From the NCBI GenBank assembly GCA_034440575.1, contig JAOTOL010001661.1, positions 2,140,001 to 2,204,000 of the forward strand: DNA of 64,000 nt. Reading direction: 5' to 3'. A program made the translations under genes and the position numbers. Source of the DNA: Imbricaverruca yamaguchii. Taxonomy: Eukaryota > Arthropoda > Thecostraca > Neoverrucidae. The first letter of the stretch is position 1. Each line of letters starts with the position of its first letter. Positions 19,843-62,712 of the stretch are shown here, in pieces. Below the pieces are notes generated by a model, which saw nothing but the letters and a program-made list of their open reading frames with translations, was not told the origin of the DNA and made no database searches.

Positions 19843-20088
19843 GACGCGTGCTGCTGATGCTGCGCGCGCTGATGAAGGCGCAGCAGCTGGAGCCGCAGAG
19901 CGCGCGCCTGCACAGTCAGCTGGTGCGGTTCGGCCGGCTGCTGGCCGAGCGCGACGACGAGGCGCCAGAGGCGCTGCGAGCCGTGGTGGCCGCCGCCCGG
20001 CCGCGACTCTACGCCGGCCGCACGCCGCGCCAGCTCAACGACCACCTGCTGGCGCAGCACCCAGACTCGCTGGCGCACGTGCTAGAGG
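19843..20088 (+). CDS. NAA15 internal exon (TPR region)
   Basis: A 246-bp exon in phase 1. It reads GRVLLMLRALMKAQQLEP, then ARLHSQLVRFGRLL, and ends QHPDSLAHVLE+G. This aligns with the family block containing FLLMLQSVKRA, HPWLHECMIRLF and RNSDSLPHRLS. The middle is Ala/Arg-rich and much more GC-rich than typical, matching the local composition. The acceptor is CCGCACCACCAG and the donor GAGG|GTCAGT. The exon's last bases (GCGCACGTGCTAGAGG) and the donor are copied into the downstream array. A read-through past the donor meets TAG within 3 codons. Confidence 0.88.
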
Positions 20089-20862
20089 GTCAGTAGTGGC
20101 CGGTCGGTTGTGTGTCTTCTGCGTCTGCGTCTGCTCACGTGCTGTCGGGTCAGTAGCGGTCGACCGGTGGTGTGTCTGTATCTGCGCACGTGCTGTGGGG
20201 TCAGTAGTGTTCGGCGGGTGGTGTGTCTGTATCTGCGCACGTGCTGTGGGGTCAGTAGCGGTCGACCGGTGGTGTGTCTGTATCTGCGCACGTGCTGTGT
20301 GGTGGTATGGTGGGGTCAGTAGCGGTCGACCGGTGGTGTGTCTGTATCTACGCACGTCCTGTGGGGTCAGTAGCGGTCGACCGGTGGTGTGTCTGTATCT
20401 GCGCACGTCCTGTGGGGTCAGTAGTGTTAGGCGGGTGGTGTGTCTGTATCTGCGCACGTGCTGTGGGTCAGTAGCGGTCGACCGGTGGTGTGTCTGTATC
20501 TGCGCACGTGCTGTGGGTCAGTAGCGGTCGACGGTGGTGTGTCTGTATCTGCGCACGTGTTGTGTGGTCGGTAGTGGTCGACGGGTGGTGTGTCTGTATC
20601 TGCGCACGTGCTGTGGGGTCAGTAGTGTTCGGCGGGTGGTGTGTGTATCTGCGCACGTGCTGTGGGGTCAGTGGTGTTCGTCGGGTGGTGTGTCTGTATC
20701 TGCGCACGTGCTGTGGGGTCAGTAGTGTTCGGCGGGTGGTATGTCTGTATCTGCGCACGTGCTGTGGGGTCAGTCGCGGTCGGCGGGTGGTATGTCTGTA
20801 TCTGCGCACGTGCTGTGGGGTCAGTAGTGGTCGGCCGGCCGTGTGTCTGCGTCTGCACACTT
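20089..20862 (+). repeat. 51-bp minisatellite carrying copies of the NAA15 donor junction, ~15 copies
   Basis: Each unit has GCGCACGTGCTGTG followed by GGGTCAGTAG, i.e. the end of the preceding exon plus its donor. It continues with CGGTCGACCGGTGGTGTGTC and TGTATCT. The real junction at 20,073-20,095 reads the same except for CTAGAG in place of CTGTGG. The first full unit starts immediately at the donor. Confidence 0.93.
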
Positions 20863-21012
20863 CAGCTGTTGGTAACAATGCAAATCAGCTCTGTCCAGTG
20901 CCGAATGGAAGCGTTTTCAAGGCAGTGATTTGGTGACTATGAATTGCCAGTGAGCACACTTAAAATGTGCTGCATATAGGTCCATTCCTCCATATTGCAT
21001 ATCGTATCGCAA

Positions 21013-21175
21013 GGACGTCGGTGGCTCAATGGTTAAACTGAGCGTCTGGCACGCCAGAGGTACGGGGTTCGATTCCCCTCAATGCCCGCCCTCCATGACA
21101 GGGTGAGAGGCAGGCGACGCCATATGGCCTCAGCTGCTGAGTGCATCGTAAAGCTACAATCCAATCCAATCCATA
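21013..21175 (+). mobile_element. tRNA-derived SINE, family B, in NAA15 intron
   Basis: The A-box-like GGTGGCTCAATGGTTAAACT and B-box GGGTTCGATTCCCC have normal tRNA spacing, but the anticodon loop is degenerate. The body GTGAGAGGCAGGCGACGCCA then TATGGCCTCAGC and the tail GAGTGCATCGTAAAG are shared with the copies at 41,985 and 43,853. It ends in a CAATC repeat. Confidence 0.82.
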
Positions 21176-22348
21176 TTGTACCGCAGTGTTTCGAACAATT
21201 GCGCACGTCCCGCCCACATGTGTGTTCCGTGTATGCTCGCGATCAATTGTGCAATGTGTTGTGGGCAACTTTTGGCGCCTAATGGTCCGAAAAAAATCAA
21301 ATATTGTTTATTCTTGCTTTAAAGTACCAGTATCGAAATGTTCAACATCCGCTGTAATGTACGCCAAACAGCCGGTGTGATCGATCACGGAGTTGTGTGG
21401 ATGCCTTGTTGAATCCTGGCCGATGTAAGACTATCTCACCAGTTACCATGCCCAATGCTTCTTAGACCGTCCTTGGCAGTTTGTTGAGCCTGACAACGCA
21501 TGCTAGAAAACGCTTCTGTATCGTAGCTATCGCCGTACATGCTTACTATGCCTCATCTACCTGTCACCTTACATTCGTTACCTTTGGCATAGCTAACACC
21601 ATGCATGCTCACCGCGCCTCGTGTACCCGTCACCCTGTATGATGTGTATACGCAGAACCTTCTATATTTAATCCTATTTAATCCGTAGGTTTCCTGGAGC
21701 GGCTTTACAGTACGGTGCTACCAGGTTCCCTGCTAATCTAAGCATGTTGGAAGGCCGCTAACCCCCTCCAGCCAGGATATTTTCAGTTCAGCGGCAGAAT
21801 TACACCCAGAGCGTGTGGTGCCGCTAATGCCCCGACACGGTCGCCCTGTTGTCTCGACTCTAGTCTCAGCTGCCCGCCTGCCATCGGATTCCCTCAGTGT
21901 AATGTTGAACTCCGTGTGGGATGCACGACACACCTGCGGCATCCAGCACAGGACAGACATGCGACACATCTGGGGGTCGACCGTCGCAGAGCTAGTCATA
22001 GATCGTTCCCAGGTGTGAGCGCGTACAGCGGCTCGGGTCGTTGTCATGTCCGGATGGGGAGGGCCAGTGCATGTCGGTGCTCTGCTCGTGCTGTTGTGTT
22101 GGTACAACACTGCCGTCACAGTGTCGAATAGAATAGGAGGTGCAAGGCAATGGGCAGCGAGCCTGATTTGGGAACCTTAGATTAGCTACGGCGGTTTCCT
22201 CTCAATCGACGGCATCAGCGCAACGTTCACGTTACAGTGTAAGATCACACATTCACACATTCACATTACAGTGCACGATAACCGTGCGTACTGTACTGTG
22301 TTGTGGCTGCCGTATGGTAGCGAATGCTAACGCTGTGTGGTGTTGCAG
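21176..22348. other. NAA15 intron, no further feature recognised
   Basis: Unique intronic DNA up to the acceptor at 22,348. An ACATTCACATTACAGTGCA phrase near 22,250 is locally duplicated. Confidence 0.5.
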
Positions 22349-22443
22349 GGGCTAGGATGCTCTGCCTGCTGGACAGCAACAGCGATAGTCAAGCAACGCA
22401 GCTGGTCAGAAACTTGGATAACTTCCCACACTGCACGTGGCAG
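22349..22443 (+). CDS. NAA15 internal exon (ARMLCLLD...)
   Basis: A 95-bp exon, entering in phase 1 and leaving in phase 0. It encodes GARMLCLLDSNSDSQATQLV then RNLDNFPHCTWQ. The family has [20 protein letters not shown] followed by TTLDESLTNRNLQ at the same place, so length and pattern agree. The acceptor is GTGTGGTGTTGCAG and the donor CAG|GTATGT. The last ~20 nt of the exon recur with the donor in the tandem units just downstream. Confidence 0.88.
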
Positions 22444-23050
22444 GTATGTCGCTCATTCCTCAGGCAGGTATGTATGTACATCAGTGTCGGGACAACTGCC
22501 CACATTACGTGACAGGTACGTCGCCTCGTCCCCGATACACTGACCAGTGTCAGACAGTTGCCCACATTACGTGACAGGTACGTCGCCCTGCCCCCGATAC
22601 ACTGACCAGTGTCAGACAGCTGCCCACATTACGTGACGGTACGTCGCCCTGCCCCCGATACACTGACATTGCGTGAGACGAAATGCACGACCCTCAATAT
22701 ACCAGGAGGTGCTGGGTTTACATCAAAAGTAGCGTTGCGGGATTATGCTATATTACTCAACGTTTCGGCCAGGGGCCATCGTCAATCAGTTCCATAAATC
22801 ACTCCTGACGATGGCCCCTGGCCGAAACGTTGAGTAATATAGCATAATCCATAACGCTACTTTTGATGTAAACCCAGCACCTCCTGGTATATTGAGGGTC
22901 GTACATTTCGTCTCACGCAATGTCTAAAACTCAGGACGCACTTAAGAGCCATTCTTCGTTGTATTAAACAACCCGATACACTGACCAGTCTCAGATAGCT
23001 GCCCACATTGCGTGACAGGTACGTCGCCCTGCCCCCATACACTGACCATT
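22425..23050 (+). repeat. ~60-bp tandem repeat carrying copies of the exon-22,443 donor junction, interrupted by a foldback element
   Basis: The exon ends CCCACACTGCACGTGGCAG|GT. Downstream units at about 22,498, 22,560, 22,621 and 23,003 have CCCACATTACGTGACAG|GTA followed by CGTCGCC. Unit bodies read CCGATACACTGACCAGTGTC. The foldback element at 22,665-22,924 lies within the array. Confidence 0.85.
22665..22924. mobile_element. Foldback (inverted-repeat) element, ~115-bp arms
   Basis: The left arm begins GACATTGCGTGAGACGAAAT and the right arm ends with its near-perfect complement ATTTCGTCTCACGCAATGTC. Arms pair for over 100 bp with few mismatches around a ~30-bp loop. Each arm contains GATGGCCCCTGGCCGAAACG (one on each strand), and the right one is preceded by CCTGAC. 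That motif resembles the CUGANGA...GAAA core of hammerhead ribozymes found in Penelope-like retroelements, but the rest of the ribozyme is not confirmed. No coding sequence is present. Confidence 0.8.
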
Positions 23051-23800
23051 GTCTCCGGTCCCCTTTGGGTGGTCAGCTATATGTGTTCACAGCGGGGTGT
23101 TGCGGTGTAGCGTCAGGTCGGGACCTGGAGCGGTGAGGTCTCCGACTAGGTCGTGTGCTGGTGTTCTGTTGTGATCCTTAGCAGATCTCCCGTGTGCCAT
23201 TTGTTCAATGATAAATTATTTATGAAATTGGGTGGAAAATACCACTTTCTGAACACTCAATCTACATCCTTCTCCAATATGTATCGACATCCTAGTCCTT
23301 GATGCGTGCTTATGAAGTCTTCATGTCTCCTTTCTAACAGTACCTCGTGTACATGTATCGTATGCATTCTCTCCATAACGAATCGTGATGCACGAACATT
23401 TTGCAGCTCAATTTTCAGGCAAAGTGATTGCCTATAATGTGGTATAGCATTACAATGCCGGTTTATAGGATAGGTAATATCCTCCCTATCCTGAATAAAG
23501 CTCTTCCTAAATTGTACACTTGGAGCCAAATGATACAGGCACAGTCATAAGTACACCATTGGTTCAAATTTCGATCTGAAAGGCATGAAAATCATTTTAA
23601 ATGACACCAATTTCATGGCAAATTTCCACATCCTATTGCGCTCGTTTCGACATCTCACACCTAATGAAAAAAATTAAACACTGCATGTGTTTCAGAGGTG
23701 CAACGTTTCAGATGCGTCCCGTGAACTGTGGGGTATGCCGTGTGCTGCAGCTGTGCTGTGTGTACTGTGCAGTTTCCTGTGCACTGTGTAACGTGTCATC
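23051..23800. other. NAA15 intron, unique AT-rich segment
   Basis: No exon or element recognised. It becomes GT-rich (CTGTGTACTGTGC) from about 23,720, where the large array begins. Confidence 0.5.
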
Positions 23801-25490
23801 TGCCGCGGATGTACCGTGCGTGCTGTGCAGTGTTCTGTGCGTGCTGTACAGTGTTCCGTGTGTGCTGTACAGTGTACCGTGTGTACTGTACAGTGTTCTG
23901 TGTGTGTGCTGTACAGTGTGCCGTGTGTGCTGTACAGTGTTCCGTGTGTGCTGTACAGTGTACCGTGTGTGCTGTACAGTGTTCTCTGTGTGCTGTACAG
24001 TGTTCCGTGTGTGCTGTACAGTGTACCGTCGTGCTGTACAGTGTACCGTCCGTGCTGTACGTGTACCGTGTGTGCTGGTGCCGTGTGTGCTGTGTGACCG
24101 TTTGCTGTGTCGACCGTGTGTGCTGAGTGCCGTTGTGCTGTACGTGTACGTGTGCTGTCGTGTCCGGTGTGCTGTACAGTGTACCGTGTGTGCTGTACAG
24201 TGTACCGTGTGTGCTGTACAGTGTACCGTGTGTGCTGTACAGTGTACCTGTGTGCTGTACGGTGTACCGTGTGTGCTGTACAGTGTACCGTGCGTGCTGT
24301 ACAGTGTGCCGTGTGTGCTGTACAGTGTACCGTGTGTGCTGTACAGTGTACCGTGTGTGCTGTACAGTGTACCGTGTGTGCTGTACAGTGTACCGTGTGT
24401 GCTGTACAGTGTACCGTGTGTGCTGTACAGTGTACCGTGTGTGCTGTACAGTGTACCGTGTGCTGTACAGTGTTCCGTGTGTGCTGTACAGTGTACCGTG
24501 TGTGCTGTACAGTGTACCGTGTGTGCTGTACAGTGTACCGTGTGTGCTGTACAGTGTACCGTGTGTGCTGTACAGTGTACCGTGTGTGCTGTGCAGTGTC
24601 CGTGTGCTGTGCAGTGTACCGTGTGTGCTGTACAGTGTACCGTGTGCTGTACAGTGTACCGTGTGTGCTGTACAGTGTACCGTGTGTGCTGTACAGTGTA
24701 CCGTGTGTGCTGTACAGTGTACCGTGTGTGCTGTACAGTGTACCGTGTGTGCTGTACAGTGTACCGTGTGTGCTGTACAGTGTACCGTGTTGTGTAAGTG
24801 TCGTGTGTGCTGTAAGTGTGTGTGTGTGTTGTTTTGTTTTTTTTTTTGTGTTGTGTGTGTGTACGTGTCCGTGTGTGCTGTACAGTGTACCGTGTGTGCT
24901 GTACAGTGTACCGTGTGTGCTGTACAGTGTACCGTGTGTGCTGTACAGTGTGCCGTGTGTGCTGTACAGTGTACCGTGTGTGCTGTACAGTGTACCGTGT
25001 GTGCTGTACAGTGTACCGTGTGTGCTGTACAGTGTACCGTGTGTGCTGTACAGTGTACCGTGTGTGCTGTACAGTGTACCGTGTGTGCTGTACAGTGTAC
25101 CTGTGTGCTGTACAGTGTACCGTGTGTGCTGTACAGTGTACCGTGTCGTGCTGTACAGTGTACCGTGTGTGCTGTACAGTGTACCGTGTGTGCTGTACAG
25201 TGTACCGTGTGTGCTGTACAGTGTACCGTGCGTGCTGTACAGTGTACCGTGTGTGCTGTACAGTGTACCGTGTGTGCTGTACAGTGTACCGTGTGTGCTG
25301 TGCAGTGTTCCGTGTGTGCTGTACAGTGTTCCGTGTGTGCTGTACAGTGTACCGTGTGTGCTGTACAGTGTTCGGTGTGTGCTGTGCAGTGTACCGTGTT
25401 GTGCTGTACAGTGTTCCGTGCGTGCTGTACAGTGTTCCGTGGTGCTGTGCAGTGTGTTATGTGCTGCAGATGCATCGTGCTGTATAGTGC
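23801..25490 (+). repeat. 21-bp minisatellite in last NAA15 intron, ~75 copies
   Basis: The unit GCTGTACAGTGTACCGTGTG+T is highly homogeneous between 24,160 and 25,280; edge copies are diverged. An interruption at 24,800-24,880 contains GTGTGTGT and a poly-T run. The unit length is a multiple of three with no stop in several frames, which produces ORFs of 398-997 residues (VQCTVCA, CTVYRVC; HCTAHTV on the other strand). None of these is credible as a protein gene. Confidence 0.96.
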
Positions 25491-26916
25491 ATCATGTGCT
25501 GAAGATGTGACGTATGTAATCCACTGTGTGCCGTGTGTAATGTGCAATGTGTCGTGTGCCGTAAATGCGTCATGTGGCGTGCTGTACAGTGCGTCGTGTG
25601 CTGTGCTGTGTGCTGCCGAAGTGTCATGCTGCACAGTGTGTGGTGTGCCACAGATGTCCCATGTGTACTGCATGGTGTTCTGCGTGCTGCAGATGTGCCG
25701 TGTGTACTGTGCAGTGTGTCGTATGCTGCAAATGTGCCGTGTGTACTGTATAGTGTGTCGTGTGCCACAGATGCTCTTTGTGTACTGTGCAGTGTTCAGT
25801 GTGCTGCAGACGTGTCGTGTGTACTCTGCCGTGTCCTGCCGACGTGCTGCGAGTACTGCACTGTGTGCCGTGTGTGCTGTTCAGTGTGCCGTTTGCTGCA
25901 GACGGTCGTGCTATGCAGGGTGTGTCGTGTGCCGCAGATGTGCCGGTCGGTACTGTACAGTGAGTACCGTGTGCCGCAGATGTCCCGGTCGGTGCCGTAC
26001 AGTGTGTGCCGTGTTCCGGTCGGTGCCGTACAGTGTATGTCGTGTGCCGCAGATGTGCCGGTCGGTGCTTCAGTGTCTGTGCCGCAGATGTGCCGGTCGG
26101 TGCTGTACAGTGTATGTTGCCGCAGAGAGTGTGTGCCGTGTGCCGGTCTGTAGTTCCGTGTGCCGCAGATGTGCCGGTCGGTACTGTACAGTGTATGCCG
26201 TGTGCCGCAGATGTGCCGGTCGGTGCTGTACAGTAAGTGTGTCGTGTGCCGCAGATGTGCCGGTCGGTGCTGTACAGTGTGCGTGTGCCGTGTGCGTGTG
26301 CCGGTCGGTGCTGTACAGTGTGCCGTGTGCCGCAGATGCGGTGTTTATGTGCCTTGCTCGTGGTTTGTGTGTGTGTGCCGATGTGCCGGTCGGTACTGTA
26401 CAGTGTGTCGTGTGCCGCAGATGTGCCGGTCGGTGCTGTACGCGTGTGCCGCAGATGTGCCGGTCGGTGTTGTACAGTGTGCGTGTCGCAGATGTGCCGG
26501 TCGGTGCTGTACAGTGTTTTCGCAATTGCGGTGGTGTACAGTTTGTGCCGTGTGCCGCAGATGTGCCGGTCGGTGCTGTACAGTGTGCCGTGTGCCGCAG
26601 ATGTGCCGGTCGGTGCTGTTGTACAGTGTGCCGTGTGCCGCAGATGTGCCGGTCGGTGCTGTTGTACAGTGTGCCGTGTGCCGGTCGGTACTGTACAGTG
26701 TGTGCCGTGTGCCGCAGATGTGCCGGTCGGTACTGTACAGTGTGTGCCGTGTGCCGCAGATGTGCCGGTCGGTGCTGTACAGTGTGTGCCGTGTGCCGCA
26801 GATGTGCCGGTCGGTACTGTACAGTGTGTGCCGTGTGCCGCAGATGTGCCGGTCGGTGCTGTACAGTGTGTGCCGTGTGCCGGTCGGTGCTGTACAGTGT
26901 GTGCCGTGTGCCGCAG
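25491..26916 (+). repeat. ~42-bp minisatellite carrying copies of the last NAA15 acceptor, ~25 clear copies
   Basis: Units from about 25,930 read GTGTGCCGTGTGCCGCAG followed by ATGTGCCGGTCGGTGCTG and TACAGT. CCGCAG|ATGTGCCGGTCGGT is exactly the acceptor plus first 14 nt of the last exon. Positions 25,491-25,930 hold degenerate versions. The 21-bp array upstream shares GTGCTGTACAGTGT and looks like a shortened derivative. Confidence 0.94.
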
Positions 26917-27120
26917 ATGTGCCGGTCGGTGCTGCACGCTCTGCAGGCCGGCGAGCTGGGCGCCGCCGGCCTGGCCGCCGCCGACCAGTACCACGCCGAC
27001 TGCGCGCGACGGTTTCCGTACTGCGCCGTGCTGGGCGGACCGCTGCCGCGGCCGGAGCCGGCGCCGCCCGTCGAGAACAACGGGCCGCTGAGCGTCAAAC
27101 ACGTGCCGGACATCAACTGA
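26917..27120 (+). CDS. NAA15 terminal exon and stop
   Basis: The last exon, 67 codons plus TGA, entered in phase 0. It encodes MCRSVLHALQAGELGAAGLA, then AADQYHADCARRFPYCAVLG and a Pro-rich tail ending KHVPDIN. This fits the family end ([20 protein letters not shown] followed by YRANCHKLFPYA). The five exons together give 842 bp, i.e. ~279 residues in one frame, about a third of a typical ~860-residue NAA15. NAA16 is the vertebrate paralogue, and I assume a single orthologue here. The acceptor I chose is the last of many identical CCGCAG|ATG copies, and it is the one followed by CTGCACGCTCTGCAG rather than the repeat's CTGTACAG. The N-terminal two-thirds of the gene are not seen. Confidence 0.88.
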   Translation: MCRSVLHALQAGELGAAGLAAADQYHADCARRFPYCAVLGGPLPRPEPAPPVENNGPLSVKHVPDIN

Positions 27121-27640
27121 CACGCGCCGACCGGCGACGCTCGCGACACGGCTAGTTCCAGTACAGCCCGTGGCGCGGCGCTACCAGCTAACAGTGGGCC
27201 GGCGGACAGCGTTCAGAAATTTTGTACAGTTTGTATCATACTATCGCTGGGTTTTGAAAGCTAGTCGATGACGTTAATCTGCTGGGACCGGCGACTTCTG
27301 TGTCCATACTTGGTAACGCCCGTCGCCTCGGCCTCAGTTCGATGTTTCAGTCACGCAGACTTAGTTTGTATCAGTGAGCAGGGTGATGAGGATTTTACCC
27401 GTATGATTGCCCGGATCCACTGATTTGTCAATCATTCTCAGTTATTGCTCCAATACCATTTTGGACGAAAACACTATGGGTCTTGCGAGTTAAGTTTGTC
27501 TTGTGTGACCTTATTTATAGCAATAATTGGTTTGAGTTGACAGTGTAGTGTGTACAGATAATGCTCCCCATCTCCAGTTTGCCTGTAGATTTCGCCGGTC
27601 CGCAATTGAATAATAAACTTTTATAAAAACGACTGTGCTT
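27121..27640 (+). other. Probable NAA15 3' UTR
   Basis: Composition changes from GC-rich coding to AT-rich. No further splice site is needed after the stop at 27,120. The 3' end is inferred from the poly(A) signal near 27,612. Confidence 0.55.
27612..27617 (+). terminator. Candidate poly(A) signal for NAA15
   Basis: An AATAAA hexamer ~490 bp after the stop codon, followed within 40 bp by GACTGTGCTTCTCTG, a plausible downstream GU-rich element. Not proven by transcript data. Confidence 0.5.
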
Positions 27641-28376
27641 CTCTGATTTCCACCAGTCTGTTGGTGATGGGAGATTCGGGACGGTTGTAACGATGATGAT
27701 TGCATAGGTCCATATTGTGCGGGACTGTCCTGAGCATGGTTAGTAATGCTATAAGTAAAATTGTTTACCTCATGCCCGTGGTAGCCGTAAAGTATCATTT
27801 GGATCAGAATTGAACAGTTTTATCCTGCCGTAATGTAGCCCGCTCGGTTATAGTGAGCATACGGTGAGCGTTTCTAGTGTGATTGCATAGTGTGGGATCT
27901 TCCACCGGGACAGATACAAGGGGGAGCGCAAAGGGGGCTCCCGCTCACCACCCCTTTACACCATAAAAGGCTCTCCGACGAAGGTGGGGCGCCCCTCACG
28001 GGGGCACCTTTATCCCTTCCCCAGCTCAAATAACTGAAGTCGAAGGTGCTCTTACTAGTGGAGAAGACGCCCATGCGGGAGGGCCGAGTGCACTGCCCCA
28101 CCCCCGCCACGCTCAACGAATTTTCAAGTCGAAGGCTCCCAAAACATTTCGTTGCCCTTTAACGAACTCCCTGACCGGTCAGTGGCACTCACCTTGGCGG
28201 CACATGGACTATACGAATTCGGTACAAAGATGCATTCATCACAACTCGACGAGCTCATTCGGCACGATCACACAATGTACACCACAAAGCCGACAGAGGA
28301 GCAGCGACGCGAATCGAATATATGGGGGAGGGGGTCGTTCATTGGTGGTCAGACATCCACGGACACGAGCTGACTG
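27641..28376. other. Intergenic, no gene seen
   Basis: Positions 27,890-28,140 are GC-rich with several short inverted repeats (GGGGGAGCGC/GCGCTCCC type). It could be a structured or repetitive element, but I do not recognise one. Confidence 0.4.
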
Positions 28377-28543
28377 GGGCGGGGATGGCCGAATAGCTAA
28401 GCTCTGGATACCAACTGTCTCGAGTTCAACACTCGCACCGCTCGGGACATTTCCCAATCCCGCGGCCCGCCGGCAAAGCAATGTGGGCGCCGCCATTAGC
28501 CGTGATCGTGCATAGAGTGCGTCGAGAACCACCCAATAAACAA
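28377..28543 (+). mobile_element. tRNA-derived SINE, family A, copy 3
   Basis: A-box-like GGATGGCCGAATAGCTAAG, B-box-like GAGTTCAACACTCGC, body CGGGACATTTCCCAATCCCG and CGCCATTAGCCGTGATCGTG, and 3' end ACCACCCAATAAACAA. A possible imperfect target-site duplication is GAGCTGAC (left) and GAACTGAC (right). Confidence 0.82.
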
Positions 28544-30309
28544 CGACCTGAACTGACGCTGGCCGACTGGTGACATTCGCTACACTACTATCTTCCCGCT
28601 CAGTCGTAGCCTCAACTAGGCTACTACGTGCCCTACTAGGCGTGAACTACTAAAGGTTTCGCGAAAATTACCAAAGACTGAATTGAAGTGCATTTCTAAA
28701 TAGCTTCCGAGTCGGCTGTCTTTTTTTCTCGTTTTTCATGAATGAGATCAGCTGGTGGCTTGCAGAAGTGGACTTGCTTACAGAGGAGCGGTTTTTATTT
28801 ATAAGTGAGTTAGAATACAATAAGTGAATGGAGTTACAGCCTGTTGTCCAGACGAACTGAAATCGTGTCATGAAAATAATCTTATTAAAACCATTTAATC
28901 GATCAAGGTTTGGCTTCGAAGTGCCCAAGAATCCAGCTGTCCGAACTGAACAATGCTCGGTGTGTCATGATGCATAGTTGTATCAAGGACCACGTCAATA
29001 ATTTATTCCCCGACGAAAAAAACGGCCTTTGAGGTGGCAATTTGCAGTGCTTTGTTCTATTCCGTCCAGTGAGGTTACTTCATCTCAGAGCAACGTCGGT
29101 GTATACGACAGTTAGTTTGCGGATCGTAACAAATTGGGCAGCAGGGGATCGCCCGCCGCCCACGAATTTATTTATATCATAAGTATCGCCGAGAAAAAAA
29201 GTGTCAATGAAGCTATCGTCAGAATTAAAATTAGTTGCCACCTGTGACGTACCTTATATTTGCGTGAAAGAGAAGGGAGGATTTGGAGGTGCTTCAGGAA
29301 GCTCTATTTAATAAAGTGCACGGAGTTCGACCACCATGTTTATTAATGGTCCCAACTTTTTGTTTAAGTAATTAATGACCAACTTCAATTTCCTGTGGAG
29401 GGAACCCAGTCCATCACCATCGTTTCGAAGTGAACTGATTTCAACCTGGTACCCTGTACTCAAAGGTTTTTTTTCCAGTATCCCTTGATAAGTCAGCTCA
29501 TTGTGCCGAAATTGCACGTGCACAAATCTCTTAGAATGTACAATCGTATTTGACGCATTTCCGTTCATGATACTCGGTCGCCACCACGGCAGTAGTTGTG
29601 ACCACGCACACCAAACTTGAGTATTCGGCGCATTTGCCACCCTTCGTGAGATCCTGTGATTTCTGCAAGACCTTCTTCATTGTGTTAATTGATGCTACAT
29701 GCTAGTCTTGTGACATATTTGTCGTCATGGAATGCTTTCTATGGGGGTTCGCTGGAAAAATGTGGTGAATTCAGTTCAAGGATTATCTCTCTTCTTATCA
29801 CATTTTCTGGTGGAAAAGATGCCCGGATACCCTTGCTTTGAGCATTGATGCATCTTATCTCATTATCTTAAGATGTTCCCAGGCTTGCTACCGAGCCGAG
29901 ACGCTGGTTCGGTGTACTTTTTGGGGACCCCGTTGTACTTTTCTCGTCTGCTGATATGCTTTAGATCGCCAGTGGATTTTGCTTATGGTTCGACACACTT
30001 GCATAACACCTGCGCTTTTCAAGGTTTCGTCGCTTTTTTGCGGATCAATGGTATTTTAGTGGACCGGCGCGTTTTCGAGGGCCCCAATGTGTTTATTTAG
30101 AGACAAGAAGTATAGACCAGCATATTGCTTTTCATAAATTATCACAAAATGACCTTTTGAGCTTATTCGGTCACTTGCTAGGTTAGGTCGAAGATAAAGA
30201 GTTCCAGACAATCGGATATGGTTCCCATCAAGCATGCTATCACGTGCCGAGAAAATCGAGATAACAAATGGGCGTCCACGTGTAAATATGGCATGGTCTA
30301 CTAGCTTCA
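28544..30309. other. Intergenic, AT-rich, no gene supported
   Basis: Several 60-110 residue ORFs on the minus strand (for example 29,308-29,640 and 30,056-30,322) have mixed, protein-like composition. They carry no motif I recognise and no splice links. They could be decayed coding relics. Confidence 0.35.
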
Positions 30310-34800: not shown

Positions 34801-35660
<860 letters not shown>

Positions 35661-43852: not shown

Positions 43853-44011
43853 GTTATTTGTTTTTACGACACATCGACCGCTGAGTCATGTAGCGTCGCC
43901 AATCTCTCACGCCGATTGGTCGCGGGCGACGAGTAGCGACAGGTGAGACTCGAACCCACAACCTTTCGATTGTGAGACGAGCAACTTACCCCTAGATTAC
44001 TCGTCCCCTGG
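43853..44011 (-). mobile_element. tRNA-derived SINE, family B, minus strand
   Basis: On the minus strand the head reads GACGAGTAATCTAGGGGTAA (A-box region), and GTGGGTTCGAGTCTCAC forms a T-arm-like stem with a B box. The body has CGACCAATCGGCGTGAGAGA and TTGGCGACGCTACATGAC. The tail GTCGATGTGTCGTAAAAACA ends in AACCAACCAAC. It is the most complete family B copy in the window. Confidence 0.82.
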
Positions 44012-48499: not shown

Positions 48500-48511
48500 C
48501 CAACACAGCTA

Positions 48512-48542
<31 letters not shown>

Positions 48543-48578
48543 TGCCACCGCCACTGCCACCGCCACCGCCACCACCAT

Positions 48579-48609
<31 letters not shown>

Positions 48610-48721
48610 GCCACCGCCACCGCCACCGCCACCGCCACCGCCACCGCCACCGCCACCGCCACCGCCACCACCATCACCACCGCCACCGCCATCGCCACCG
48701 CCACCACCATCACCACCGCCA

Positions 48722-48753
<32 letters not shown>

Positions 48754-48878
48754 GCCACCGCCACCGCCACCGCCACCGCCACCGCCACCGCCACCGCCAC
48801 CGCCACCGCCACCGCCACCGCCACCACCATCACCACCGCCACCGCCACCGCCACTGCCACCGCCACCGCCACCACCAT

Positions 48879-48909
<31 letters not shown>

Positions 48910-49217
48910 ACCATCACCACCGCTACCGCCACCGCAACCGCCACCGCCACCGCCATCGCCACTGCCACTGCTTCCGCCACCATCACCGCCACCGCCACCA
49001 CCACCGCCACCGCTACCACCATCACCACCGCTACCGCCACCGCTACCGCCACCGCCACCGCCACCGCCACCGCCACCGCCACCGCCACCGCCACCGCCAC
49101 CGCCACCGCCACCGCCACCGCCACCGCCACCGCCACCGCCACCGCCACCGCCACCGCCACCGCCACCGCCACCGCCACCGCCACTCCACGCCACCGCCAC
49201 CGCCACCGCCACACCAT

Positions 49218-49248
<31 letters not shown>

Positions 49249-49300
49249 GCCACTGCCACCGCCACCACCACCGCCACTGCCACCGCTTCCGCCACCATGT
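48500..49300 (+). repeat. (CCACCG)n hexanucleotide microsatellite, ~800 bp
   Basis: Almost pure GCCACC repeats with periodic interruptions (ACCACCATCACCACC every 50-150 bp; CCACTG). The interruptions define a loose higher-order pattern. Ala-Thr, His-Arg, poly-Gly and Val-Ala ORFs of 280-400 residues result. The ORF at 48,322-49,521 continues past the array but shows no domain. Confidence 0.97.
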
Positions 49301-52440: not shown

Positions 52441-52689
52441 CGATATGATTTCAAATCTATGTGGGTGTCGAAGGTCCGGCGTGCGTACAATGATTGAGTA
52501 TAATAGGAACAGGATGATCAAATATATTTTTGTTTGCAGCCGTTGTGATAGCAAGCACTCGTATCCAATATGACTAGGGGCTCCCCCAAGAAATTCGTCA
52601 TAACCTGCTCGGACGGTGGTGCTATCATCGCTAGTTTTTAATCTACACAGCCGCATTGCTGTTCCGGCCATATAAAATACAGAACCCTA

Positions 52690-53192: not shown

Positions 53193-53762
53193 GTCTAAGA
53201 GCGACATAAAGCTTATGCGAGTTTATGAACATTAAGTTTATGCGACATAAAGCTAAATGTTCATAGGTAGTGATAAGTAGTGAAACTTGCTAAGTTTGGT
53301 GGAACTTTTGGTCCCTAAAATATTTATTTTTCTTTAAATGGTAAATCTGAACAATTGAAATACATTGAGCTTTAAATTGAAGTCTCTGAAAATGACATCG
53401 AAAACGAATTGGCTGAAATCCAAGGATTTTTTGTCCTGGGAGAGGAGGCTAAGCCTCTCTATCCTATTCAAACTTATCGCGTCCCGGGTTTGTTCCCCCC
53501 CCCCCACACTAATTTCGAATCCGTGGTCACACCCATGGCAGTGCTGATATCTGGAGGGCAAAATTACGCTTGTCACGAAGACTTCATTCATAAATGGAAT
53601 AAAGATGGCAGCAATTCCATCCACGATCACAAAATATTAGCCCATCCACATCAATGTCGAGTTGCGACTCGGAAGTTGAGTCTGAAATATTCAGAGCACA
53701 TCGCGTCCTTCCGGCTGCTTAGTCACAGAACAGATATTTCCTTGGGGACGCAGCGAGAACGA
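53193..53762. other. First-intron sequence, no feature recognised
   Basis: GCGACATAAAGCT is duplicated at 53,201-53,255, possibly the LINE's 3' terminal repeats. Confidence 0.45.
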
Positions 53763-53890
<128 letters not shown>

Positions 53891-54987
53891 ATGCAATCGT
53901 TTTCTTATAACATCACACCTGTCTGAGGCCCTCTACCACATTCGCACAGTTGGACTTCATTTAGATGTAGCTTTTTACCAGACTCTAAATCAGGTAGGCA
54001 CACCCATTTGTTGGCTTGGCACCAAATCAGGTGAGCTTCAATTGACTTTTATAGACGTCTCTGCATTATGTTCGTTTATTAAAATAAAGTCTGGTCTAAA
54101 AGAGATACTGATCGAATGAGAAATTTGTGCATGCTTTGATGAACATCTTAGCTACAACTTCCCGCATGAAAGATAATTCAGTGCTGATATTTTTATTTTG
54201 TTTTCAAGATATATGATACCATCATTTTTCATTGCGTGCATTTTAAATTCCATTGTGCAAGAAGTTTCTTCCAAACGCAAGAAGTTTCCAAACGCGCATC
54301 TCCGCTCTCTCTCTGCGCATTAAATCTTGAGAAAACTGGCAGCCTAATGTTGTGTGTAGTCGGCGACAAGTTGTGGTAAAGTTTTCTTGTTTGCATTTAT
54401 GCCTGAGTAAAAACTGTGGACAAAGTTAAAAGAGGAGGCTATTCATGCCTGTGTTTAATTCGAGGCCATTTTCACTACAAAGATGTCGGTTCAACACGAC
54501 ACTGTTTCTACGTGTGGGCAGACGACGCCTGCCTTGCCGACCCTTGAGCTGCCACACCGATGAGATGCCCAGCAGTGCGACAGCCATTTCCGGCCGGCTC
54601 GGCCAGCGGCCAGCTCCGGCCACCTGAACCTGACGCAGCGAGGCCGGCCAGGTGTGAGGTGGGCGCCGGCCAGGTCAATAGGGCCTGATCGATAGCGCGC
54701 CGGGCCGCCCATGGGACGCTCGCTGGCCAAGTGCGCGCGTGATACGATGCCCCGCGAAGTGCGGTTCGCCAGATCGTTCAGCGGTCGAGACTTCACGGGC
54801 ATCGTAGTCATTTGTGATGAACATTTTTCCCAGTCATTCATGCTCTTAATGTAATTAATCTACAATATAAATGAATCCATGCCGTGCAATTAATGCGCAT
54901 CGATGGGAGTCGTGAACACCATGCACCGGCGCAGCGTGATGCAGGACCGGACCGGCAGCGTTCAGCCGTGCTCGTGTCCACTTCCAG
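53891..54987. other. First-intron end before exon 2
   Basis: Positions 54,500-54,760 are GC-rich. The intron ends GTGTCCACTTCCAG. No other feature. Confidence 0.5.
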
Positions 54988-55135
54988 GTACTACGAGCCG
55001 TGTATCGTGCGGCGCGGCAACACGGTCCAGTACCAGACAGCCGTGGTGACTGAGGCGGGCCTCTTCTCGGTCGAGGAGCCGCCCAAGCACCTGCAGCAGC
55101 TGGTGCGCCTGCTGGACATCGTCAGCATTGAACGG
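54988..55135 (+). CDS. C12orf56/DUF4551-like protein, second coding exon
   Basis: A 148-bp exon, entering in phase 2 and leaving in phase 0. It encodes YYEPCIVRRGNTVQYQTAVV then TEAGLFSVEEPPKHLQQLVR and LLDIVSIER. The hydrophobic alternation (VVTEAGLFSVEEPPKHL...LLDIVSIE) looks like a PH-like beta-sandwich segment, as expected near the N-terminus of DUF4551 proteins (inference). The acceptor is CACTTCCAG and the donor CGG|GTTAGT. Coding potential is clear: GC-rich third positions in an AT-richer intron, and no stops. Confidence 0.72.
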
Positions 55136-55368
55136 GTTAGTGACACAGATGTCGGCAGTTTGTCGCTCTTGCAGGGCTGCAGCTTTGTATGCTGCTGGGA
55201 GGGCACTTGCCTCCTCCCCACAATGTTGTCTGTGCCCCCCAGTAATTTACACTTTTAACATGGGACCATATGTGGTTCCCCAATCCACTTCGGCCTGTCC
55301 ACTGCTTTCATGTTATTGCCCCCCCCACCAATAATTTTCAGAAACCTATACTCGTGCGTCTATGCATC

Positions 55369-55370
<2 letters not shown>
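55136..55370. other. Second intron, unique start
   Basis: Unique DNA with a GCCCCCCCCACC run. No tandem copies of the donor junction follow this exon. Confidence 0.5.
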
Positions 55371-55424
<54 letters not shown>

Positions 55425-55430
55425 CATCGA
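55371..55430. repeat. (TA)n microsatellite
   Basis: ACACACATACATA passes into a ~40-bp TA run and ends in ATACATACAT. Confidence 0.95.
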
Positions 55431-57293
55431 AGAATCGCGTCGCATATATTTTTGTGGGCTACTCCCAATTCCCAATTTTAATTCCCGCAAATCTAGGAAT
55501 TTTCATATTTAATATAAGATCCCGAGTAGCTGCCACTCAGCTTGCATGAGCTTCCAAGCCGATAATTGCAGCGAAGTTGGTTTCTGGCGGTAGCTTTAGT
55601 TTAGTTAGTTTAGTCCAGCTCCAATTAAGTAGCCAAGTTATAACTGTATGTGTTGGAGCGTGCCTGGCGCGCTTTTCCGCATTGCCGCAGCTGGCAGGGC
55701 GCGCCAAGTTGCCGAGTCAGCCGGTGTGTGTCGACGGCCGGGCAGCGGACTGCAGCGACTGGCCGGGCGTGGCGGGTTTATGGCACGGCCGCCGGCCGGC
55801 GCAGTGCGGAAGTCTCCAGGGCTGCAGGCGTCGCTGCGGAGCTGTTGACTAGGCCGGACTGTTGCGCTGCTCTGAGCGGAGTCACGGAGGTTACGTCGGC
55901 GGTCGGGCGCACGCCCGGCTGACGCTTCAAAGTCCAGTTAATGGGCAGAAGTTAGCGGCAGCTCTTTCGAACCGAGTTACCGCGGACCATGCGAGGCTTT
56001 CCGAGGCTATCGCCTTGGCCACAAAAGTGCGAAGGAGCTCTAGGTGGGGTGTCAACAGTATATTTTCCGATTTATTACATAATCTGTCACATTTTCCTCC
56101 GCTGGTATGATTAATAACGGTGGGGTGCATAAAAGCTGTCAGCTTGTGACGGCATGAAGCAGGTAGGCTTTTCACCTGGAGTTGTTTTATAACTAGCTGC
56201 ATAACGTGATATAGTACTTTGCCACCTTTGAAGCAATTGCTTCCATCTGCAAAACACACTGACAACTAGAGTAAGAAAAATAAGCTGTCAAATTTTGCTT
56301 TTTCACCTATTGCAAGCGTCGTATGTATCAAAATCATGGGCAATTATATACTGATTAGTGAATGGAGATTGAAGGCGTTGGGAATGGTGGTAAAGTTTGA
56401 TTAAATGCGAAGCAAAATGGTTTTAATTAGGAACTGGTTTTTCGCGTTGTGACAATTAATATACGACAACCACAATTTTGCATTTCATCAAGAAGCTTGC
56501 TTTATGCATCAAATATGGGAAAAAGTCATATTAAAAACAAAATACTCTACTAACATGAACACACCAAGTTGACCAGCTGTCCATTCTCACCAATGATAAC
56601 AGCACGCGTCATGACCTACCAACGGCATTGGAAAATAAGAGCTAAACTCGTCCAAACTGCAAGTAAAAGCTAGTAGTTTTGAACTGTGGTCTGTAAGCTA
56701 TGACCAATGCATAAATAGGCAAGAAGCTCCACATCTTTAAGGTCATTTCAGGCTGCTTCAATTCAAATTTCATATGCGTCACAACTCGTTTACCTATACT
56801 ACCAGGTACCGCTGACAGCACTGGCAGCAGTGCCTAGTTAGTGACCTAGTGACCAGTACCATTAGGTGGGCATAGTGTCCTATTGCCTATTGCCTCGTGT
56901 TGGGTTGGAGGTGGTGTCTCCGTTGATGAGAAGTGACAGCTCGTTCTTCGCGTGGTTGTATATCTGGGATTTCCATGCTCGCTTTTTATGTTATTCCTGA
57001 TGACGGCCTTCTTACGAAATGCCGAGTATTTCACAGCTGTCATATTTTTAATTGATCACAACTCCCCTGAGATAAAAGAGGTTGTGCTTGTCCTAAACTA
57101 ATTGCCACACAAGAAAAGCGCAAGGTACAAGGGCCAGACGGAGAAAAACTCGGCTTAACGAAATGCGACCTATAAATTAACAGCAAAGAAACTGTGCGTT
57201 TCCTGTTAGGCGCGTGCGGGTTGATGCGATTCTGCCTAAGATCTAGGTTCGCTGCATCATTTTTTTTGCCGAAGGCAACCCTATGAAGTTTAA
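55431..57293. other. Second intron sequence with GC-rich island
   Basis: Positions 55,640-55,930 are GC/CpG-rich but have no supported exon. At 56,996-57,034, TCCTGATGACGGCC and CGAAATGCCGAGTATT resemble the motif in the foldback element at 22,665. Both may come from a Penelope-like element. Confidence 0.4.
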
Positions 57294-58447
57294 AGGCCTG
57301 TTTACACGTGGCGGAATTCCGGCAGAATCTTGCCTCGGCAGACCCGACGTTCGCGACGCAGGCGACAGAAATAGGCAGGCAGCGGCAGAAATTAGCAGGT
57401 AGCGGCAGAAAGTAGCAGGTGCGGTGGACTCTGACGTCACGCTTCATTCTGCCAATGTCATACTAACGGGCTGACGTCATCTATCCAATGCGCCATGAAG
57501 CGTCTCGGCTGTTCGTTTATTGCGCCACAAATAGTCCGCTGCAGTACGAATTGGTGCAAGTTGACTCAAGTGGTACCATTAACGGTAGTACCAAGATAGC
57601 ATTGATTTATATATATTTCGCACTAGCTCATTACAATAATGGCTCTTGCATGCCATCCATGCACGGTTTTCTATGAAGGATGTGGTAGTGAGGTTACGAT
57701 GACAGGGAAACAGAGCACAATATATTCTGGTTAAAGAGCTGAAAAGGGTGCCGAAAACTGAAGTGCCGAAAACTGCTCATTCCTACCACGATGAGACCAG
57801 AGCGCAAGAGCCGAACTGTGGTTGGGGTTAAATTTTGGGACTAAATTTGGAGTTCGTACATTCCATGCGCCAACAAAAGCCTGAGATTAACCTTCGCAGT
57901 TGGTACTGCATCAGCAACACACAAAACAAGTGCACCAAGTTCAACCCCTAAGCAGACACCATTTGGTGACATGCGTCTCCTTGCAAAAGAAAACATGTTA
58001 ATTTGGCATACCATCTTTTACACTTATTTGGATTGCAGTGCAAGGTATACTACAAAGGACAAAGGAAAGCGAAACATACCCACCAATATGTCCATCCACA
58101 ACACCCGCAGAGTTCAATTTTAACAAGTGTGGTCACCGAAAGTCCGGACAGCAGCCACAAAACTGTCCGACGCTCGCGTCCGACGGCAGAGCGCGGCAGA
58201 CAACTTGAAATGTTTTACGTTGTCTGCAGCCGTCGTCGCCGACGTTGACAAAGCTACCAAATCAGAATCGCTATGGCTAATGCATTGCGTGACGTCACCC
58301 ATCTATGCTGTGACGTCAGAGGCTGCTGGCGTCGCCGACGTCGCGTTCTGCTCAATTATACTCGGTTCTGCTGGGTTCCCCTCGGTTCTACCAATGCCAC
58401 GATTCTGCCGGGATTCTGCCAGGTTTCTGCCGCGTGCACTCAGGCCT
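57294..58447. mobile_element. Non-autonomous DNA transposon, PIF/Harbinger-like, ~1.15 kb
   Basis: The left end AGGCCTGTTTACACGTGGCG and the right end (complement) AGGCCTGAGTGCACGCGGCA are imperfect terminal inverted repeats. They are flanked on both sides by TAA (57,291-57,293 and 58,448-58,450). A 3-bp TWA duplication is the rule for PIF/Harbinger and ISL2EU-type elements. Both subterminal regions carry multiple GGCAGAA/CGGCAGAAT motifs in opposite orientation and a TGACGTCA-type site. No transposase ORF is present. Confidence 0.75.
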
Positions 58448-58968
58448 TAAAACGAATATATTGTGAATGATAAGCTCTAACTCGAGTGTTTGAACTGAAG
58501 CCAGCGTTATCTGCGCAGCCTAATCCAACTCGCGCATCACTTGCAGGTGAGATTGGTGTAAGCCAGATGGCTCAGGCTAGATTAGCATAGCATAGCATAT
58601 GCCATGTCATAGTAGCTTAGGCTAACTTAGACATAGCTAGGCTAAGCGTGGTTAGTTTTAGATAGGTGGTTGGGCAGGGCTTTGCTAAGCCTACCTAAGA
58701 TCAGGGTAGCTAATAGGTGTCAGACGTGTCTAAAATGCACAAACTATTCTGTGATAATTGCGTCTACCCAGCGTACGCTCCTGTATCGTATGTGTTGCTT
58801 TTACCCCCATATCGTGCACATACCACCCCCATCCCATAACCACTTGTTTTCTACACTGACGCAGCTATCTGACGATGCCCAATGCCCTGCTTCCTGTCGT
58901 GTAGCATGTGCCACAAGTCTGCACTGCTTTCGGCGTCCGCGAGCCACCTCTTCGATGTTTCACTGCAG
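58448..58968. other. End of second intron
   Basis: Unique DNA with TAGCATAGCATAGCATA and AGGCTAA words. It ends at GTTTCACTGCAG. Confidence 0.5.
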
Positions 58969-59309
58969 GTGCACGACATCGTCGAGTTCCTGCGGGAGCC
59001 GCTGAGGGACAAGGTGCAGCACGTGCGCGTCGAGTACCGGCCGCGGCAGCTGGTGACGCCGACGTCGGCTCGCGCTGACGCCAGCGACGGCGACGGCGAC
59101 GCGGGATCGGCGGCGACGACCGCTTCCTCCGGCAACGGGCTGCTGACGGTGCCGACCAGACGCACGCTGCGGCGCAGCAGCGACTGCGCCACGGAGCGCC
59201 GCCGCACACTCAGCCGCCTCGAGGAGGAGGTGGAGGAGTTCAGCGGCCGGCTCCGGATCGACGGCCACCCGCCCGACCGCCAGACGGCCAGACCCAGCCT
59301 CGACCTCAG
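58969..59309 (+). CDS. C12orf56/DUF4551-like protein, third coding exon
   Basis: A 341-bp exon, entering in phase 0 and leaving in phase 2. It encodes VHDIVEFLREPLRDKVQHVR, then VEYRPRQLV, a low-complexity Ala/Asp/Gly/Ser stretch, RRTLRRSSDCATERRRTLSR and an acidic LEEEVEEFSGRL. It ends DRQTARPSLDL. The first 30 residues look like the end of the folded N-terminal domain (FL...D.xxQH(V/I)R(V/I)xY), and the rest is likely disordered. The donor CCTCAG|GTGAGG is strong. Reading on past it meets TGA at once. The last ~28 nt plus the donor are repeated ~18 times in the following intron. Confidence 0.7.
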
Positions 59310-60232
59310 GTGAGGCCGGACCGCCGGACCGCCAGACCCAGCCTCGACCTCAGGTGAGGCTGGACCGCCAGACCTCCAGACCCAGCCTCGACCTCAGGTG
59401 AGGCCGGACCGCCAGACCACCAGACCGCCAGACCCAGCCTCGACCTCAGGTGAGACCGCCGGACCACTAGACCCAGCCTCGACCTCAGGTGAGGCCGGAC
59501 CGCCAGACCCAGCCTCGACCTCAGGTGAGGCCGGACCACCGGACCGCCAGACCGCCAGACCCAGCCTCGACCTCAGGTGAGACCACCGGACCGCCAGACC
59601 TCCAGACCCAGCCTCGACCTCAGGTGAGGCCGGACCGCCAGACCGCCCGACCACCAGACCCAGCCTCGACCTCAGGTGAGGCCGGACCGCCAGACCGCCA
59701 GACCGCCAGACCCAGCCTCGACCTCAGGTGAGACCGGACCCTCCCGCCTCGACCGGTGGACGCCGACCCCGACCGCCAGACCCGCTTTGACCTCGGTGAC
59801 CCGGACCCCGCCCGCCTGAGACCACCGGACCGCCAGACCTCCAGACCCAGCCTCGACCTCAGGTGAGGCGGAACCGCCAGACCACCAGACCCAGCCTCGA
59901 CCTCAGGTGAGGCCGGACCGCCAGACCACCAGACCGCCACACACAGTCTCGACCTCAGGTGAGGCCGCCGGACCACCAAACCTCCAGACCACCAGACACA
60001 GCCTCGACATCAGGTGATACTGCCGGATCGCTAGGTGGCCAGACCATCAGACCACTAGGCCCAGCCTCGACTTCAGGTGAGACTGCCAGACCACCAGACC
60101 CCCAGACCCAGCCTCGACCTTAGGTGAGACATCCGGACCGCCAGACCACCAGACCAAGCCTTGACTTCAGGTGAGACTGCCGGACCACCAGACCCCCAGA
60201 CCCAGCCTCGACCTTAGGTGAGACATCCAGAC
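59310..60232 (+). repeat. 36-62 bp minisatellite carrying copies of the exon-3 donor junction, ~18 copies
   Basis: Each unit has CCAGACCCAGCCTCGACCTC + AGGTGAG, identical to the last exon bases and donor. It is followed by a variable number of GGACCGCCAGACC blocks. Later copies decay (GACTTCAGGTGAG, GACATCAGGTGAT). Confidence 0.95.
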
Positions 60233-60289
60233 CACCAGACCGCCTGGCCCATAAAACCACATAAGAATTACTGCATTGTGTGAACGGCA

Positions 60290-60329
60290 TGATCAAACAT
60301 CCATGGTATCATCCATGGATGTTTGATCA
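60290..60329. repeat. Perfect 17-bp hairpin
   Basis: TGATCAAACATCCATGG and its exact complement are separated by TATCAT. It lies between two splice-junction arrays. Confidence 0.8.
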
Positions 60330-60565
60330 TCCATTTGATCATGAAACATACATGTGTTTTGCTGTAGAGGATATTGCTTTGACAAATTGCCATGCTATGT
60401 TGTCTGATAGTAAGTGCGGCACATGAACAGTTTCGAAGCATCGCTTTCCGTCTGTCATTCCATTTACGTCTATTGTCAAACATGTGTCTGCAATTATTCA
60501 ATCTGCGTGGTGCCTGCACTAGCGAATGTGCGGATGGGCGCCGATCTGCGCATCGGTGCAGTTGC
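60330..60565. other. Short unique spacer in third intron
   Basis: The only non-array DNA of the third intron, together with the hairpin. No feature. Confidence 0.5.
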
Positions 60566-62235
60566 TGTCCCGGTCGAAATCAGTCCTCGCCTGGTGGTGT
60601 ACAGGCGTGTATGGGTCCCGTCCCGTCTAATGGTGTATCCGTGTCCCCAGTCCCCGTCTGATGTGTTCTGTGTCCCCAGTCCCCGTCTGTGGTGTGTCTG
60701 TGTCCCCCCCGGTGCAGTTGTCTGTGTCCCCGGTCTGCAATCAGTCCTCGCCTGGTGGTGTACAGGTGTGTCTGTGTCCCCAGTCCCCGTCTGATGGTAC
60801 GTCTGTGTCCCCAGTCCCCGTCTGATGGTGTGTCTGTGTCACCGGTCCCCGTCTGATGGTGTGTCTGTGTCCCCAGTCCCCGTCTGATGGTGTTCTGTGT
60901 CCAGTCCCCGTCTTGGTGTGTCCCCAGTCCCCGTCTGATGGTGTGTCTGTGTCCCCAGTCCCCGTCTGATGGTGTGTCTGTGTCCCCAGTCCCCGTCTGA
61001 TGGTGTGTCTGTGTCCCCAGTCCCCGTCTGATGGTGTGTCTGTGTCCCCAGTCCCCGTCTGATGGTGTGTCTGTGTCCCCAGTCCCCGTCTGATGGTGTG
61101 TCCGTGTCCCCAGTCCCCGTCTGATGGTGTTGTGTGTCACTCTTTGTGTCCCCAGTCCCCGTCTGATGGTGTGTCTGTGTCCCCAGTCCCCGTCTGATGG
61201 TGTCCGTGTCCCCAGTCCCCGTCTGATGGTGTGTCTGTGTCCCCAGTCCCCGTCTGATGGTGTGTCTGTGTCCCCAGTCCCCGTCTGATGGTGTGTCTGT
61301 GTCCCCGGTCCCCGTCTGATGGTGTGTCTGTGTCCCCAGTCCCCGTCTGATGGTGTGTCTGTGTCCCCAGTCCCCGTCTGATGGTGTGTCTGTGTCCCCA
61401 GTCCCCGTCTGATGGTGTGTCTGTGTCCCCAGTCCCCGTCTGATGGTGTGTCTGTGTCCCCAGTCCCCGTCTGATGGTGTGTCTGTGTCCCCAGTCCCCG
61501 TCTGATGGTGTGTCTGTGTCCCCAGTCCCCGTCTGATGGTGTGTCTGTGTCCCCAGTCCCCGTCTGATGGTGTGTCTGTGTCCCAGTCCCGTTGATGGTG
61601 TGTCTGTGTCCCCAGTCCCCGTCTGATGGTGTGTCTGTGTCCCCAGTCCCCGTCTGATGACGTGTCTGTGTCCCCAGTCCCCGTCTGATGGTGTATCTGT
61701 GTCCCCAGTCCCCGTCTGATGGTGTGTCTGTGTCCCCAGTCCCCGTCTGATGGTATGTCCGTGTCCCCAGTCCCCGTCTGATGGTGTGTCTGTGTCCCCA
61801 GTCCCCGTCTGATGGTGTGTCTGTGTCCTCAGTCCCCGTCTGATGGTGTGTCTGTGTCCCCAGTCCCCGTCTGATGGTATGTCTATGTCCCCAGTCCCCG
61901 TCTGATGGTGTGTCCGTGTCCCCAGTCCCCGTCTGATGGTGTGTCTGTGTCCCCAGTCCCCGTCTGATGGCGTGTCTGTGTCCCCAGTCCTCGCCTGCTG
62001 GTGTGTCCGTATCCCCAGTCCCCGTCTGATGGTGTGTCTGTGTCCCCAGTCCCCGTCTGATGGTGTGTCTGTGTCCCCAGTCCCCGTCTGATGGTGTATC
62101 TGTGTCCCCAGTCCCCGTCTGATGGTGTGTCTGTGTCCCCAGTCCCCGTCTGATGGTGTGTCTGTGTCCCCAGTCCCCGTCTGATGGTGTGTCTGTGTCC
62201 CCAGTCCCCGTCTGATGGTGTGTCCGTGTCCCCAG
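60566..62235 (+). repeat. 31-bp minisatellite carrying copies of the exon-4 acceptor, ~50 copies
   Basis: The unit GTCCCCAGTCCCCGTCTGAT + GGTGTGTCTGT contains a polypyrimidine-CAG acceptor plus a version of the exon start. Copies at ~60,580, 60,742 and 61,987 keep TCAGTCCTCGCCTG-type or CCCAGTCCTCGCCTGCTGGT sequence, like the true junction at 62,231-62,250. A 621-residue minus-strand ORF (GDWGHRHTIRRGLGTQTHHQ) is an artefact of a unit not divisible by 3. Confidence 0.95.
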
Positions 62236-62550
62236 TCCTCGCCTGCTGGTGGACGGCTGGCCCGTCAGCCCGGCCAGCCCGGACGGCCACCCGCTGGCCG
62301 CCGACGGTGACCAGGTGACACTCTCCCTGCTGCTGAAGCGGCGCCACGCGGCCGGCAGTCCGCAGCCGCGGCCGACCGTCGCCGGCCGCGGCCCGTCGCC
62401 GGGTCCGGCCCGCCACGGCGGCGAGTTCGAGACCGGTCGCGGCATGACGCGGTCACAGAGCGCGCTGCCCGCCTACCACCGGTCGACCAGCGCCAGGGAC
62501 GACTTGCCCGAGCGGTCGCGCAGCGTGCTCGACGCGCCGCACGTGCTGAG
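62236..62550 (+). CDS. C12orf56/DUF4551-like protein, fourth coding exon
   Basis: A 315-bp exon, in and out in phase 2. It encodes S-PRLLVDGWPVSPASPDGH, PLAADGDQVTLSLLLKRR, then a Pro/Arg/Gly-rich stretch with GRGMTRSQSALPAYHRSTSA and RSVLDAPHVL. It is likely a disordered, basic, Ser-rich region. The acceptor is GTCCGTGTCCCCAG (the last of ~50 copies) and the donor GCTGAG|GTGAGT. The protein is open at this point (~298 residues so far), so further exons lie beyond the window. The identity of the family is tentative; the exon chain is supported by matching phases. Confidence 0.65.
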
Positions 62551-62712
62551 GTGAGTCTCGCACGTGCTGGACGCGCCGCACGTGCTGAGGTGAGTCGCGC
62601 ACGTGCTGGACGCGCCGCACGTGCTGAGGTGAGTCTCGCACGTGCTGGACGCGCCGCACGTGCTGAGGTGAGTCTCGCACGTGCTGGACGCGCCGCACGT
62701 GCTGAGGCGAGG
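62551..62712 (+). repeat. 39-bp minisatellite carrying copies of the exon-4 donor junction, ~4 copies
   Basis: The unit is GTGAGTCTCGCACGTGCTGG + ACGCGCCGCACGTGCTGAG. Its second part is the last 19-20 nt of the exon and its first part the donor. Use of a downstream donor would introduce an in-frame TGA at the first codon boundary. Confidence 0.95.

Follow-up and report, generated by a model that had tools for sequence, protein, structure and literature searches.

Mirages are minisatellites built from repeated intron–exon boundaries, and they have been described in amphioxus in Adh3 and in the globin genes BflGb6 and BflGb9 (PMC3087553), to which TnC and PGBD5 have been added (PMC3902484). These two papers report mirages at both donors and acceptors, with unit lengths of 10 to 160 bp and with AG/GT decoys among the repeated copies (PMC3087553, PMC3902484). 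The globin paper further describes edge units as excluded from homogenisation, proposes an intron-gain route for mirages, and presents RT-PCR that suggests normal splicing (PMC3087553). A splice-donor minisatellite is also on record for the human gene IFI6 (6-16) (Turri et al. 1995, as cited in PMC2915984 and PMC4526556), where two downstream repeat units reportedly serve as splice donors (PMC4526556, citing Turri et al. 1995), and the tandem genomic duplication of AGGT segments has been reviewed as a route of intron gain (PMC3443670). Among the matches listed from the open-licence literature, which holds few subscription papers, none names mirages outside amphioxus, and the accessible passages on earthworm metallothionein genes (PMC12783039) and on amphioxus VCBPs (PMC2632668) report no boundary repeats.

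The DNA considered here is a eukaryotic stretch of 64 kb (the window), and its initial annotation held that no system with such regularity had been described. That claim falls, as the amphioxus mirages have the same structure (PMC3087553, PMC3902484). The kind of structure is already known, and what is new here is its density together with a measured, small-sample excess at junctions. As in amphioxus, the repeated unit spans the exon–intron boundary and takes in exon bases (at 6/16 exon ends), and both types of boundary are hit, with four donors and two acceptors. Unlike in the amphioxus reports, the arrays found here lie at six junctions of two neighbouring genes, reach up to 49 scanned copies, and come with a measured excess relative to positions shifted along the window. 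The likeness to the AGGT route is that a segment with splice signals has been tandemly duplicated; there, however, a new intron arises from exon sequence, whereas in the present case the junction already exists and its repetition enlarges the intron.

By homology, the two neighbouring genes are NAA15, encoding the NatA auxiliary subunit and represented by its last five exons, and a DUF4551 gene represented by four exons; together they give 16 placeable exon ends, the number also stated in the initial annotation, which lists coordinates for six of them. NAA15 was recognised by profile matches to PF12569 (at 2.5e-11, 8.4e-10 and 3.4e-06) and by a match to PDB 6c95 chain A (8.5e-07), and a protein search at E 0.001 found no NAA15 relatives. 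The DUF4551 gene matches PF15087 (4.6e-05, 0.00027 and 0.00022, each under Pfam's own cut-off), a family known as C12orf56. Exons without a Pfam match of their own were located through an open frame, splice signals and matching intron phase, and the five NAA15 exons past the Pfam domain presumably belong to that gene, an assignment made partly from likeness to the human protein. Five exons, all on the plus strand, concern us most. Those of NAA15 at 19843–20088, at 22349–22443 and at 26917–27120 (the last exon, with the stop codon) are each placed by open frame, phase and splice signals; that of the DUF4551 gene at 58969–59309 is placed by its PF15087 match, below the Pfam cut-off, with frame, phase and splice signals, and that at 62236–62550, which lacks its own Pfam match and has a junction array at both ends, by its open frame and matching phase. 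Within the regions scanned, Pfam revealed no further genes beyond the PF12569 and PF15087 matches, sub-threshold matches to DUF4169 and TilS_C being taken as chance. These scans, with stops read through, covered 1–20, 36–51 and 45–60 kb (three frames) and 57.5–64 kb (two frames) of the plus strand, and 1–15 kb (three frames) and 36–51 kb (two frames) of the minus strand; between 20 and 36 kb of the plus strand, coverage was of the known NAA15 exons. GC content is 47–62% per 4-kb block of the window, which seems high beside the figure of about 41% for amphioxus.

At six of the sixteen exon ends, a tandem array stands at the intron edge and its unit includes the exon's own splice site. All six arrays run along the plus strand, and the numbers of scanned copies given below count the real junction among them. 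In NAA15, the array of donor 20088 (20073–20860) has a unit of 51 bp and 13 scanned copies, the donor itself lying in the first unit, whilst that of donor 22443 (22416–23050) has a 62-bp unit and four scanned copies. The latter is interrupted by a near-perfect hairpin at 22665–22924, foldback or MITE-like, with arms of 72 nt (99%) and 45 nt (100%); since copies of the array flank the hairpin on both sides, the array is probably the older of the two. The array of the acceptor before 26917 (23810–26936) consists of units of ~42 bp adjoining the exon and, farther off, of a related 21-bp array, with 19 scanned junction copies. This 21-bp array occupies 23810–25455 and, given its kinship to the acceptor array of the fifth NAA15 exon, ~3.1 kb may stem from a single junction. 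In the DUF4551 gene, donor 59309 is followed by an array at 59269–60274 (unit ~45 bp, steps mostly 36–63 bp, 18 scanned copies), acceptor 62236 is preceded by one at 60584–62251 (unit 31 bp, 49 scanned copies), and donor 62550 is followed by one at 62515–62735 (unit 39 bp, five scanned copies). The four donors and two acceptors are those named in the initial annotation and were confirmed at the positions given there, and the measured unit lengths agree with the 51, ~60, ~45, 39, 42 and 31 bp given there for 20088, 22443, 59309, 62550, 26917 and 62236. It had also placed 15–30 nt of exon in each unit; exon bases are indeed included, over the somewhat larger range of 16 to about 41 in the matching stretch (16 at 20088, 28 at 22443, 21 at 26917, at least 40 at 59309, 16 at 62236 and 36 at 62550).

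The remaining ten exon ends scored low in two tests of self-similarity. When the 20 exon and 20 intron bases at each end were matched, no gaps being allowed, to the intron side, the six array junctions scored 25–40 out of 40 and the other ten ends 19–23; on the exon side, all 16 ends scored 19–21. With gaps allowed, the intron-side scores were 37–80 at the six junctions as opposed to 14–18 at the other ten ends, and the exon-side scores were 33 at 59309, where the exon end is itself slightly repetitive, 24 at 62550 and 14–22 at the remaining ends. The weakest of the six junctions is 22443, with a gapped score of 37, where shuffles reached at most 27 and 26. Donor 32970 was considered as a seventh case and rejected, its match being of 8 nt only.

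These arrays are probably minisatellites of the amphioxus mirage kind, grown within introns from the junctions beside which they stand. A short tandem duplication across an exon–intron border would have come first. If the exon-proximal copy continued to be spliced, the mRNA would be unchanged and the extra copies would be intronic and nearly neutral. The copies would then multiply and homogenise within the intron whilst the edge units stayed original, a step to which the unit patterns of two arrays lend support, and the array would lengthen the intron and load it with decoy sites, the use of which would probably be disfavoured, being mostly protein-truncating. The 31-bp units of the 62236 array vary little, and a derived unit fills its interior; the exon-like form TCCTCGCCTG marks the real junction and recurs at 61988 and, with a different intron part, at positions 60584 and 60745 on the far edge. 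Among the decoys of the 20088 array, the most distant one is the one whose intron part best matches that of the real junction (17/20). The combination of a homogenised interior with edge units of the original type is clear in the former of these two arrays and suggestive in the latter. By analogy with BflGb6, both patterns fit a history in which a junction would first have been duplicated and a derived unit then amplified, the edges on either side staying conserved. Resemblance to the real junction declines with distance in the arrays of 59309 (rho -0.63), 26917 (-0.54) and 62236 (-0.29) but not in the fourth array tested, that of 20088 (0.23), so no single growth pattern is common to the arrays.

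The units of the six arrays differ in sequence, as the initial annotation had stated, save for matches of 12–15 nt that link the array of 20088 to those of two other junctions. A shared origin was rejected, and the proposal that each array was seeded at its own junction is supported. Similarity exceeded that of 200 shuffles in 5/153 pairs of array stretches, and two of these five pairs were the 12–15 nt matches just mentioned. The 12-mer GCGCACGTGCTG is common to the arrays at 20073–20860 and 62515–62711; the exon ends at 20088 and 62550 both encode His-Val-Leu, and codon usage may therefore explain it.

Growth from the junctions has to be weighed against coincidence, that is, against a repeat-rich genome in which some arrays will touch exons and in which the reader's window was a lucky one. 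Tandem Repeats Finder (TRF) rows, with overlaps merged by hand, gave 51 regions that cover 28% of the window, 29% of its noncoding sequence and 10% of the coding sequence mapped in it. Because arrays fill so much of the window, raw array membership is not enriched at exon ends: 6/16 ends lie in or near an array against a mean of 4.32 under circular shifts, and six or more do so in 29% of 9,115 shifts. With 6/16 so near to expectation, membership was dropped as a measure of any effect of the junctions. What argues against coincidence is the form of the arrays. Edge units that span a border and have copies on the intron side only were found at 6/16 ends, about eight times the 0.72 expected, and none of 21,267 circular shifts reached six at the threshold of 25/40, which just admits the weak junction 22443. 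At 28/40, the count is 5/16 against 0.59 expected and two of the 21,267 shifts reach five. Binomial tests against noncoding positions gave 3.7e-05 at the looser threshold and 0.00022 at the stricter. When the genes are taken singly, the looser threshold gives 3/9 ends in one (reached in 140/21,267 shifts) and 3/7 in the other (56/21,267), and the stricter 2/9 (913/21,267) and 3/7 (51/21,267). The regularity seen in the initial annotation is in part background, as arrays fill 28% of the window and one intron is 86% array with no junction included. The sample comprises 16 ends from a single window chosen by its reader for its striking looks, so that these figures overstate the case at genome level, and the excess at junction edges holds for this window only. 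Even so, we regard coincidence as improbable. A general tendency of AG|GT motifs to favour array edges was considered and was not seen among noncoding AGGTR motifs, 4/131 of which have copies on the right only. Candidate causes of the excess are that arrays are founded by duplication more often at junctions, or that they last longer there, the exon-side unit being kept intact by selection.

A second alternative is that the extra units are functional, serving as alternative splice sites or aiding exon recognition, and have been kept by selection. The present donor arrays resemble IFI6 in that a single exon end has several splice donors, supplied by minisatellite units. The unit of the IFI6 minisatellite is short, at 12 bp. 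In IFI6 downstream units are reportedly used (PMC4526556), whereas the donor decoys described here would bring stops, which makes their use in coding unlikely. The scans of the arrays found 99 decoy sites that retain the GT or AG, 35 of them donors and 64 of them acceptors, in keeping with the earlier description of introns filled with decoy splice sites. Use of any of the 35 decoy donors would be followed by an in-frame stop, and this favours the copy nearest the exon as the real site. For the decoy acceptors, a stop falls inside the extension in 47/64, 13 would shift the frame without a stop there, and four are clean and in frame; these four, which would fit a functional role, all belong to the 26917 array (4/18 of its decoys). 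Judged from the predicted reading frames, such a role for the units is decidedly unlikely. The real donors of the arrays match 7–8/9 bases of a simple donor consensus and the other donors 7–9/9, so they are no stronger; many decoys retain the bases around the site. As array donors are no stronger and many decoys have the same bases, the site is probably chosen by its position beside the exon.

That some of the introns were born from tandem duplication, with the arrays as remnants of that birth, is the least probable reading and a very unlikely one, although both the reviewed AGGT route (PMC3443670) and the proposal made for mirages in the amphioxus globin paper (PMC3087553) give it a precedent. 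Introns 22444–26916 and 59310–62235 carry arrays from different junctions at their two ends, with which growth of an existing intron fits better than birth by a single duplication. Growth from junctions, the reading preferred here, also bears on intron length. Arrays make up 88% of intron 59310–62235 and 74% of intron 22444–26916, both with junction arrays at their two ends, and 33% of intron 20089–22348; in the remaining three of the seven introns examined, besides the one described next, the share is 0%, 21% and 4%. Intron 18755–19842, the second intron of NAA15, is 86% array, mostly a 25-bp array at 18854–19788 with 37 copies, and neither of its junctions lies inside. Arrays can therefore lengthen introns with or without a start at a junction; the initial proposal of intron expansion by junction arrays finds support in the two introns that are mostly array (74% and 88%).

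With 6/16 exon ends in two neighbouring genes and arrays that occupy most of two introns, a curiosity of a few amphioxus genes becomes countable. It is possible, though on present evidence doubtful, that across this animal's genome minisatellites preferentially arise or survive at exon–intron borders and that introns grow in large part as their junctions are duplicated again and again, perhaps outside the lancelets from which mirages are known. If this were true genome-wide, it would offer a natural test of how splicing selects one among dozens of near-equal sites, and of intron growth too.

Other repeats were noted in the window. ARAGORN found no tRNAs in it, and Rfam gave one weak tRNA match, at 43941–44001 on the minus strand. 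Stretches of a tRNA-like, SINE type were seen by eye near 12106, 21012 and 28386. In the DUF4551 gene, the first intron mapped is 22 kb long and contains an array of 131 copies of the hexanucleotide ACCGCC at 48511–49296.
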